From NCBI GenBank assembly GCA_022749935.1, contig JAKIWQ010000001.1, positions 1 to 64,000 of the forward strand: a DNA stretch of 64,000 nucleotides, given 5' to 3'. This DNA is from Thermoplasmata archaeon (GTDB lineage Archaea; Thermoplasmatota; Thermoplasmata; Lutacidiplasmatales; UBA184). The translations under genes were made by a program, and so were the position numbers. How positions within the stretch are numbered: the stretch's first letter is position 1; each line of letters begins with the position of its first letter. Of this stretch, positions 15,301 through 17,569 are shown piece by piece. The notes under the pieces were generated by a model. The model did no database searches. It saw nothing but the letters and a program-made list of their open reading frames with translations, and was not told the DNA's origin.

Positions 15301-15704
15301 ACCCATCGACGGTGACGATCGGAACTAATGTCACTTTCTACGTGCTGCACACAGGTGGGACTCCCTCCTATACCCTGAGTTGGACGGGGCTCCCCGCTGC
15401 TTGTCTGGTGAACAATCAAACCGCCTCCACCCTAACATGCCGCCCCACTCAAGTCGGTAGTTTCTCGGTCCGGGTCAATCTGACCGATGCGCTCGGTCGA
15501 TCAGTGGAGAGCCGGACCTCCCTAACGGTGCTTGCGGCCGAGCCAAACGCCACGGTTCCCCCTGCCCCACCCGAAATCTTGGGATTGACTCTCGTCTACC
15601 TTGGGGTGATAGCCGCAGTTATCGGGGGCGTCGTGGGGGCAATCGCGACGCTTCTCATCTCGCGTGGCAGACAGAAGCCAAGGAATGATACCATGTCGAC
15701 GTAG
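12309..15704 (+). CDS. Surface-anchored beta-propeller/Ig-like protein, paralog of 5428-8832
   Basis: Near-collinear with 5428-8832 over its full length (GGVCVLPGTITVLDPSPKPSFVASLPVGDGPSQVAYDSADGRIFVTNYCSNSVSVID); same four Cys-containing C-terminal domains and C-terminal TM. Confidence 0.82.
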   Translation: MSISDIGGPHGRRNGRRGGRSFDACRTWRVRGTGWVQAIQSTLLIILLVSSIPWGTIHSRPFDVPSSGERSVSTSAEVAAVAPTHSVHAEGRTEVTNSRWAPTTTAYTLDPLNRTLIQGAFSPPAPGYPWGALDIPSLGEVVLGDSQGGDVYLINATNGGEVRALPVGNTPDAFAYDPTTRILYCTLAGGEDDSISFVNLSTGEVERTLTGIHNAGDLLYDSSNNLLYVTNWSGLLELNGSTGSVESYLPIHWGVKPLVLDPLTGSLFVADAGNGTVYIINTSLNQVKSNLTIHNSGGGSAVAMLFDPHSRQIYTADYGDGNVSVIDATSMKVNRTTPEINLGGVLTSLALNPTTHEVYVSNCAPPPLNFRTCIIYDSNDTLASQTLPDSFPAFLAYDSASSHLRVIINYESSYGFSGSDDRQVGFVSIVTSYLGGALDSANGLEYIATPALGGVCVLPGTITVLDPSPKPSFVASLPVGDGPSQVAYDSADGRIFVTNYCSNSVSVIDATNDSIVRLDLPVGSEPYGITFDSLKDTIWIADYNSQNLTVLNGSTLATVRTVTLPLAYPYGLAIDPTAHSVFVSDIVGNAVTVVNSTTYSISTLMIPVGSSPQGIFYDPQNGNVYVANGGSDNITVINGTNDSVVESIATAGGTTALALDPIDHLILGTNAGGSRIIVLDALTNLAEFSSLPASGNPQGIVYVPTDHQVDVFNFGASAINILADAPTLSNFTANPAQSEVGTLLTFFAIAANGTPPYAFSYSGLPPGCASTDSVVIACTPTLPGQFVVTLTVVDSASYFWSATLKVSVWTHLGSGALSVRPPTIDLGMTTTFALTGAGGVPPVTYAYQGLPSGCSSSDSPFVNCTPAGVGSFVVVGFVTDNLGVVSVAATGLRVNPPPLVEAFVNTPTTILVNSSVLLLASVSGGTAPFSYSYRGLPPGCSSTDSTALGCTPTVPGNFTVTLTASDSLGRSVNASLPITVLPPPVATLPPQISAFFADPSTVTIGTNVTFYVLHTGGTPSYTLSWTGLPAACLVNNQTASTLTCRPTQVGSFSVRVNLTDALGRSVESRTSLTVLAAEPNATVPPAPPEILGLTLVYLGVIAAVIGGVVGAIATLLISRGRQKPRNDTMST

Positions 15705-15739: not shown

Positions 15740-16295
15740 TCGGACGTGTAGGCGGCCCGGGTGTAGGCAGCGACCCTCCAAAGTCTGTCCGGACCCCTCG
15801 CGCACGAGCGGCGCAAGGCGGCCTGGTTCTCCGTGCGGTACGGGATTATGGAGGGACAGTACCGAAGAGGGGGTTCCTTCCACGTCGGATCCCGATTCAC
15901 ATCATGACGCCGATTGACGAATCCGTCAAGAGAACGGCGGAAAGCCAGAGCCTAGATTGCCGGTGTGGGAAGACCCCCTTCACGAGGCTCATGGATTCCT
16001 GACTTCGGAGGCCCTTGGCCTGATAGCCGTAGTCCACGCCTCCATGGTCACCTGGGGTCTTGTGCCACTCTGCTATCATGGTCGGAAAGATTGGTGTGGC
16101 CCCGTCCGTCCAAACAGGCTGTGACGTAGGTCGTGGCCGGTGCCACTGGCTCCCGCCCCGTGCGGGTTCTACAGGCCTGACGGTTCCCTAAGGAAATGCC
16201 AGGTCTAGCGGGCGTCGGATTCACCTCCTCGAGGGTTCGAATACTCGCAACGGGGCGATTCTACGAGGTGATTAGCGGGGCATGGATTTGAACCA
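15740..16295. repeat. Copy B of the duplicated block, ending in the intact tRNA-iMet gene
   Basis: Homologous to about 8884-9418 at an offset of about 6.88 kb. Confidence 0.75.
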
Positions 16296-16375
16296 TGGAT
16301 CTACGGGTTATGAGCCCGTCGGGATTTCAGGACGGCCGGGATTCCCGGACGTTTTCCTGACTACCCTACCCCGCT
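16273..16375 (-). tRNA. Initiator tRNA-Met (CAT) with a 28-nt D-loop insertion, probable non-canonical intron
   Basis: AGCGGGG acceptor pairs with CCCCGCT; anticodon arm ACGGG-CTCATAA-CCCGT; T-arm CATGG-TTCAAAT-CCATG; archaeal iMet-type D-arm GGGTAGTCAGGA/AATCCC interrupted by 28 nt. Confidence 0.85.
16327..16354 (-). other. Putative 28-nt intron in the D-loop of tRNA-iMet
   Basis: AAACGTCCGGGAATCCCGGCCGTCCTGA; TCAGGA(exon)/TCCTGA(intron 3' end) helix, A-rich bulges at both junctions, inner CCGGG-AAT-CCCGG hairpin. Exact boundaries ambiguous within the A-runs. Confidence 0.65.
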
Positions 16376-16525
16376 GCGCGGCGCCCATGGAGGGCTCCGT
16401 ATATGAGCTTCAACCTCGGCGGAGCGGACTCGATGGCCTCTCGATGGGTTCCTGTCGAAAGGGTCGTGCGTCGACCTCGTAGAATCACCGGGTGACCACA
16501 ATCCCATTTACTCCCCCGTCGCGAA

Positions 16526-17569
16526 GTGAAGGGCATGCGGGTGGGTGCATTCTCCGTCGTCGAGTCCCGATCGGGCGCCTCGGCCGAACCGCTGGCGGAG
16601 CGCTTCGACGAGCTCCTCCGATTGGTCGAGACCTCGGAGCGCGCCGGGCTTACGTCCTTCTGGGTCGCGGAACATCACTTTCAATCGAGTGGATTGTGCC
16701 CATCTCCGCCCGTGTTGCTGGCGGCCGCCGGCCAGCGAACCGGGTCCATCCGGCTCGGGTCCCTCGTGTGCGTGCTCCCGTTTCATCGGCCGATCGACGT
16801 GGCCGAGGAGTACTCCCTGCTCGACGTGCTCCTTCACGGGAGGCTCAACCTGGGGGTCGGCTCCGGATACGTGCCGCTCGAACTCGACGCCTACGGGGTC
16901 CCGGGGGCGTCCAAGCGGGAATGGTTCGATCGAAACCTGGCGGAGGTACACGCGGCCCTCCGGGGAGAGGCGATCGGGATTCCCGGGGGCGGGTCGGTGC
17001 GACTAAACGTGCGCTCTCCTCAGATGCCCCATCCCCCGATTTGGGTAGCGGCCCAGCGTCGAGAAAGCGTTCCTCACGTCGCAAGGGCGGGACTGTCCAT
17101 CGCGTTCCTCCCGTACGCGACGTTTCAAGACCCTACCGAACTCGGAGCGTCGATCAGGGAGTACCGCAGGGCCCTGCCGGAGGGGGTCCAGGGGACGGTC
17201 TCCGTCGCGATGCCGGTCTACGTCGGAGAGGACACCGGACGGGCGACCCGGGCCCTCGATCGTCACCTCCAGAGTCGCCCGTCGTCGCAACAAGGGTTCT
17301 ACGAAGGGGCCGTGCGCCGGGGTCCTTCCCTCATTTCGGCCGCCGCGGTCGAGCGGGCCGGATTCGCCCTGTTCGGCCCATCGTCCGATCTCCCCGACCG
17401 TCTCGAGGAGTTTGACCGGCTCGGCGTGGACGAGATCCTGGGAATGTACGACATTGGGGACCTGCCGGCCGAACGGGTCGTCCAGTCGATCCGACGGATT
17501 GGCTCGGTCTGCCCGGGGGCCGTCGGCCTCGCGCCGATGGGGGTTCGTTCGACCGCCGCTGCGAGATAG
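16526..17569 (+). CDS. Luciferase-like (LLM class) flavin-dependent oxidoreductase
   Basis: SFWVAEHHF..., GSLVCVLPFHRPIDVAEEYSLLDVL..GRLNLGVGSGY motifs typical of bacterial luciferase-like monooxygenases. Confidence 0.82.
   Translation: MKGMRVGAFSVVESRSGASAEPLAERFDELLRLVETSERAGLTSFWVAEHHFQSSGLCPSPPVLLAAAGQRTGSIRLGSLVCVLPFHRPIDVAEEYSLLDVLLHGRLNLGVGSGYVPLELDAYGVPGASKREWFDRNLAEVHAALRGEAIGIPGGGSVRLNVRSPQMPHPPIWVAAQRRESVPHVARAGLSIAFLPYATFQDPTELGASIREYRRALPEGVQGTVSVAMPVYVGEDTGRATRALDRHLQSRPSSQQGFYEGAVRRGPSLISAAAVERAGFALFGPSSDLPDRLEEFDRLGVDEILGMYDIGDLPAERVVQSIRRIGSVCPGAVGLAPMGVRSTAAAR

Follow-up and report, generated by a model that had tools for sequence, protein, structure and literature searches.

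The insert that interrupts the D-loop (position 20a/21) of the only initiator tRNA-Met (iMet) gene found in this genome is, with high confidence, a tRNA intron of the bulge-helix-bulge (BHB) family. We favor this reading because sister taxa possess intronless iMet genes, because the junctions are conserved around a covarying hairpin, because exon and intron bases covary, and because no second iMet gene is found. A D-loop tRNA intron had been proposed from the sequence alone, and the proposal is thus supported on comparative grounds.

The interrupted gene and its junctions

On the minus strand of the window, by which we mean the whole stretch of 64,000 nucleotides analyzed, positions 16375 to 16273 encode a complete archaeal iMet of 103 nt with an interrupted D-loop, present on that strand in a single copy, and its sequence and arms match exactly those described in the sequence-only reading. 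An A1-U72 pair and three G-C pairs next to the anticodon loop identify it as an initiator. The gene was recovered by a whole-genome tRNA covariance search (RF00005; C1:16273-16375, minus strand, 54.9 bits against a cut-off of 29) and was missed by both ARAGORN in standard mode and a fast (filtered) Rfam scan of the window, which returned tRNA-Thr and tRNA-Cys only, a caution for annotation, as interrupted iMet genes can escape tRNA finders such as these. Its neighbors are a 1131-aa ORF that ends at 15704 and a 347-aa ORF that starts at 16526, and a TATA-like element precedes it (Table 1). Of 89 distinct regions upstream of iMet genes, 47 contain such a motif, and in 44 of these it is located 32-33 nt upstream; its frequency in shuffled sequence is 0.5%. 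Both exons are contiguous and in the normal order, and thus the gene is neither split nor permuted.

Table 1. Features of the interrupted initiator tRNA gene, and T-loop inserts elsewhere in the same genome
Feature	Position	Strand	Remarks
Pre-tRNA-iMet(CAU)	16273..16375	-	103 nt, intergenic; RF00005 54.9 bits
TATA-like promoter element CTCATATA	16400..16407	-	starts 32 nt upstream of the tRNA
5' exon, 22 nt, positions 1-20a	16354..16375	-	cut between second and third bulge nt
Central helix H, exon strand CAGG, contains G18 G19	16356..16359	-	pairs with CCTG
5' splice-site bulge AAA (AA/A)	16353..16355	-	AAA in 64/66 distinct inserts
Predicted intron, 28 nt, AACGTCCGGGAATCCCGGCCGTCCTGAA	16353..16326	-	unique best BHB solution; geometry kept in 65 distinct inserts
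Inner helix h' and loop, ACG.T.CCGGG-AAT-CCCGG.C.CGT	16332..16352	-	paired in 378/405 cells
Central helix H, intron strand CCTG	16328..16331	-	4/4 pairs in 63/65 distinct inserts
3' splice-site bulge AAA (AA/A)	16325..16327	-	faces internal loop TAGT beside the D-stem; AAA 64/66, AGA 2/66
3' exon, 53 nt, positions 21-73	16273..16325	-	near-invariant among intron-bearing relatives
Anticodon CAT	16310..16312	-	from the sequence
T-loop inserts	L029, L030, L031, L033 (contigs C25, C33, C45, C26)		cloverleaf fits

As to the junctions, an exhaustive scan for 4-bp helices with 3-nt bulges on either side returned one clear best solution, in which exon CAGG pairs with intron CCTG, both bulges read AAA, and a 28-nt intron (AACGT...CTGAA, at position 20a/21) leaves a spliced tRNA of 75 nt. 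When this geometry is counted as a 4-bp helix with exon CAGG, 3-nt bulges and at least 3 bp beyond, random inserts of the same composition produce it in about 0.02% of cases. The unspliced RNA is predicted to fold into a cloverleaf with the insert as a hairpin in the D-arm (-49.3 kcal/mol, z = -4.9), with none of 200 shuffles as good. The locus thus conforms to archaeal BHB introns in the broad sense, that is, an exon-intron central helix of about 4 bp flanked by 3-nt bulges. The 5' site possesses the full arrangement of H, bulge and h'. The outer helix of the 3' site (the D-stem, G10-12/C23-25) lies past a TAGT/AAAT internal loop, with 0 outer pairs adjacent to the bulge. The junction is therefore not a canonical BHB in the strict sense, which calls for an outer helix immediately beside the 3' bulge. 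It is of the relaxed BHL-like, or HBh', kind, with a 3-nt bulge at one site, an internal loop at the other, and a 4-bp helix between them. The relaxed bulge-helix-bulge layout proposed earlier is thus borne out by the junction scan, by the fold and by 65 distinct inserts.

The length of the insert bracketed earlier, 28 nt, and the mature sequence that it implies both stand, and only its register has to be moved, since it was placed one base early, a shift that, within the run of A, leaves the mature sequence identical. The earlier register combined with a longer central helix was considered and set aside, because in the relatives L045, L122, L124 and L137 a C before CCTG pairs with the base after AAA and so precludes the longer helix. 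Removal of the insert indeed restores a normal D-arm, as had been claimed, and with it a standard 75-nt iMet whose D-loop is of the same length as in most intronless orthologues. The exact cut sites, AA/A on each side, are modeled on the known BHB geometry and would yield the D-loop AGTCAGGAAA. Excision by a route other than EndA acting on a BHB, self-splicing for example, is extremely improbable: we found nothing in its favor, 28 nt is far below the size of group I or group II introns, the geometry fits a BHB, and the genome encodes EndA.

Conservation among relatives

When 85,462 species genomes were scanned for such inserts, 74 loci were returned, nearly all in metagenome-assembled genomes of Thermoplasmata, and including those of Candidatus Lutacidiplasma silvani and UBA184, both assigned to Lutacidiplasmatales (PMC9287336). 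Within the family, the insert is present in the genome's own genus (g1) and in genera g5 and g6, and the iMet intron marks these three as one clade, while genera g2, g3, g4 and g7 of the same family, and families f2 and f3 of the same order, possess intronless iMet genes with a standard D-loop. In family f2, this intronless D-loop contains AGGAAATCCC, the very sequence predicted for the present iMet after splicing. In the EndA tree, the intron-bearing genomes, together with one genome with no assembled iMet, form one group (support 99/97), and this grouping suits a single gain of the intron within the order. Genomes of the family negative for the pattern were considered as cases of intron loss, the whole-gene search turning up mostly Ile2-type tRNAs, along with G093, whose intron-bearing iMet copy is cut by a contig end; assembly gaps are the more likely explanation for such genomes. 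Pattern matches in Methanophagales (L117), Methanothrix (L140), an Acidobacteria bin (L101) and G374 were likewise discarded as chance or unrelated matches, since they are D-arm halves with no insert between them. Two records labeled as Acidobacteriaceae or bacterium (L077, L133) carry an archaeal iMet with the intron, and these contigs are probably mis-binned.

The 65 distinct inserts are accompanied by only three versions of the near-invariant exons, and the central helix is complete in 63 of them, with three of four pairs retained in the other two. The inner core is much more variable, at 69% mean identity, and has nevertheless remained paired: in 45 inserts of equal length, 378 of 405 cells of the inner helix are paired, whereas 2000 re-dealings of the halves gave 341 +/- 3.8 and never more than 353, a contrast inflated by the relatedness of the sequences, and G-C, C-G, A-T and G-T alternatives are directly seen at single positions. 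The comparison with related genomes that the sequence-only reading called for has thus revealed intronless sister genera and families with a standard D-loop, along with junctions that are kept around a covarying inner hairpin. Across 400 genomes of the class, inserts at the same site are also found in families f13, f18, f20 and f23. Exon TAGG is paired with intron CCTA in f18 and f23, a compensatory exon-intron change relative to CAGG/CCTG; the four genomes of f20 have a weak central helix. One iMet of family f23 (L226, in G145) apparently possesses a second insert, in the T-loop, beside the D-loop intron.

These patterns bear on whether the insert might be retained, with the mature iMet of the clade displaying an enlarged D-arm and an extra hairpin. 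The hairpin is indeed stable and the other arms are intact, both of which would suit retention, but conserved bulges and exon-intron pairs around an inner part that drifts in sequence and length are the pattern of a splice signal, and sister taxa maintain a standard D-loop. Moreover, the same genome holds introns at 37/38, as well as T-loop inserts at 59/60 whose retention would destroy that loop, and G18 G19, needed for the contact between the D-loop and the T-loop, are bound in a helix until splicing. We therefore consider retention very unlikely.

Could the locus instead be a dead copy or an insertion scar, with another, intron-free iMet gene in service? The sequence-only reading had named such a gene, together with a lack of spliced reads from this locus, as what would speak against its proposal, and a genome-wide tRNA covariance search of the assembly (97 contigs, 95% complete, a completeness that leaves some room for a second copy in this single assembly) found none. 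Of the other tRNAs with a CAT anticodon, both rejected as second initiators, one (L020) is an elongator Met with a 37/38 intron and one (L017) is of the Ile2 type. While the fragmentation and the missing 5% of the assembly speak for a dead copy, the near-closed relatives G006, G026 and G029, of 5-7 contigs, each possess one iMet match, and it is the interrupted gene. The exons are near-invariant across 65 distinct inserts and the promoter element is conserved, also contrary to expectation for a dead copy, and this explanation, already largely refuted, retains hardly any probability.

Splicing machinery and other interrupted tRNA genes

The splicing-endonuclease architecture, proposed earlier as a point to be checked, has now been identified. 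EndA is encoded by one 354-aa ORF (on C25) with two PF02778 and two PF01974 domains, that is, two units of an N-domain and a catalytic domain in one chain, with the Tyr-His-Lys triad, as read from the alignment, in the second unit only; by its sequence this is an enzyme of the two-unit homodimer type (alpha'2). The broad-specificity loop of Crenarchaea and ARMAN (CSL/ASL), defined as a Lys-containing loop of 11-18 residues in the N-domain of the catalytic unit, is absent from the EndA sequence when compared with the Archaeoglobus fulgidus enzyme with a grafted Crenarchaea-specific loop. The region reads YGSRVGDRLELSL, as in A. fulgidus, without an insert, and likewise in the other families checked, with no difference between intron-bearing and intronless genera. 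Two catalytic-domain matches in EndA are also found in all 26 relatives from the order and in nine of ten further class members checked, the tenth, G127, having one such match in a 292-aa frame. The genome also encodes RtcB.

In the folded, unspliced transcript, exon bases 17-19 (CAGG) would pair with the intron 3' end (CCTG), leaving the AAA bulges; the two-unit homodimeric EndA would then cut at AA/A on both sides, and RtcB would ligate the exons to give an initiator tRNA of 75 nt. The mature iMet would lack the insert, its D-arm reading AGTCAGGAAATCCCG, and splicing would free G18 G19, helix-bound beforehand, to make their contact with the T-loop. It had been argued that such an intron would demand a permissive endonuclease. 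This claim is not upheld, as the EndA is of the two-unit homodimer type with no extra loop, and homodimeric EndA is reported to cut, whatever the tRNA body, BHL-like junctions in which a 3-nt bulge and an internal loop are 4 bp apart (PMC8707768). As the iMet junction, with its 3-nt bulge, 4-bp helix and internal loop, is of this form, it is plausible that it is spliced by this EndA with no new activity. The homodimer of Ferroplasma, also of the Thermoplasmatota, cuts a minimal BHB at 30 C (PMC8707768).

The intron is not alone in this genome. Interrupted-cloverleaf fits, which place the T-loop cuts anywhere between positions 56 and 61, point to four anticodon-loop introns compatible with 37/38 (elongator Met, Tyr, Leu-UAA and Trp) and to four T-loop inserts of 31-34 nt compatible with 59/60 in Glu(CUC), Asn(GUU), Arg(UCU) and Gln(CUG); the Gln insert has a strict BHB motif. 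D-loop inserts are found in iMet and in Arg-GCG; the latter (L032, on C12, around 105171-105239) is about 35 nt long, and a shorter one is present in its f2 counterpart (L186). The tRNA-Trp gene (L028, C4:2715-2874) holds an intron of 87 nt, and 9 bp can also form between the intron ends and the anticodon region (CTCCAGTCA/TGACTGGAG); Trp introns of other archaea are known to contain a C/D-box guide RNA, and this one may do likewise. At L034 (C80:3743-3816), a sequence resembling tRNA-Ile(GAU) scores low and has a misfit 5' half; it may be either a remnant or one more interrupted gene. Genomes with an intronless iMet also possess non-canonical introns, in four T-loops in G003, and in three D-arms and one T-loop in G101, and thus the tolerance of such introns probably predates the iMet intron. 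In G101 (family f2), a tRNA-Arg(UCG) gene (L183) apparently carries two introns, near 37/38 and near 59/60. The intron had been thought unusual for its lineage; it is instead clade-wide, and accompanied by many further D- and T-loop introns in the order.

Parallels are available from other Archaea. One example is the non-canonical BHB introns (20/21, 22/23, 59/60 and others) of Thermoproteales and other Crenarchaeota, Thaumarchaeota and Nanoarchaeota (PMC4090602), which are likewise short, may occupy the D-loop, form a small hairpin and interrupt a single gene; unlike those of the crenarchaeal type, the present one belongs to a soil order of Thermoplasmatota, has an initiator as its target, and is paired with a two-unit homodimeric rather than a heterotetrameric EndA. 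Another example is presented by the split initiator of Nanoarchaeum equitans (37/38) and the permuted initiator of Thermofilum pendens (59/60), also interrupted and rescued through a BHB (PMC3218864), whereas here we find a plain cis intron in the D-loop, neither split nor permuted. A third example is the BHL-like substrates of homodimeric EndA (PMC8707768), which share the 5' 3-nt bulge, the 4-bp helix, the 3' internal loop and the homodimer; the A. fulgidus case (PMC6379350) is at position 37/38, while the present intron is at a D-loop site. Finally, the two-unit EndA of the Korarchaea also coexists with non-canonical introns, but possesses a loop that the Thermoplasmatota EndA lacks (PMC4033280).

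Consequences for the lineage

In reviews, the alpha4 and alpha'2 EndA enzymes of Euryarchaeota are paired with canonical introns only (PMC4090602; PMC4033280), and Korarchaeum, whose EndA has the loop, is named as the sole alpha2 archaeon with non-canonical introns (PMC4033280). With the present lineage, one can test directly whether EndA architecture and the special loop set which tRNA introns a genome can carry, as the rule has it. We would suggest, only tentatively, that a tRNA-intron radiation like that of the Crenarchaea (D-loop, 59/60 T-loop and initiator) took place across large parts of the class Thermoplasmata, with a loop-less homodimeric EndA that became broad by another route. If true, such a radiation would break the rule by which non-canonical introns go with either a special loop or an enzyme of the (alpha-beta)2 or epsilon2 type. 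The main surprise is an intron-rich order of Thermoplasmatota with a loop-less homodimer, more than the single iMet intron. As all protein synthesis starts with iMet, initiation in these organisms would hinge on splicing via EndA and RtcB.
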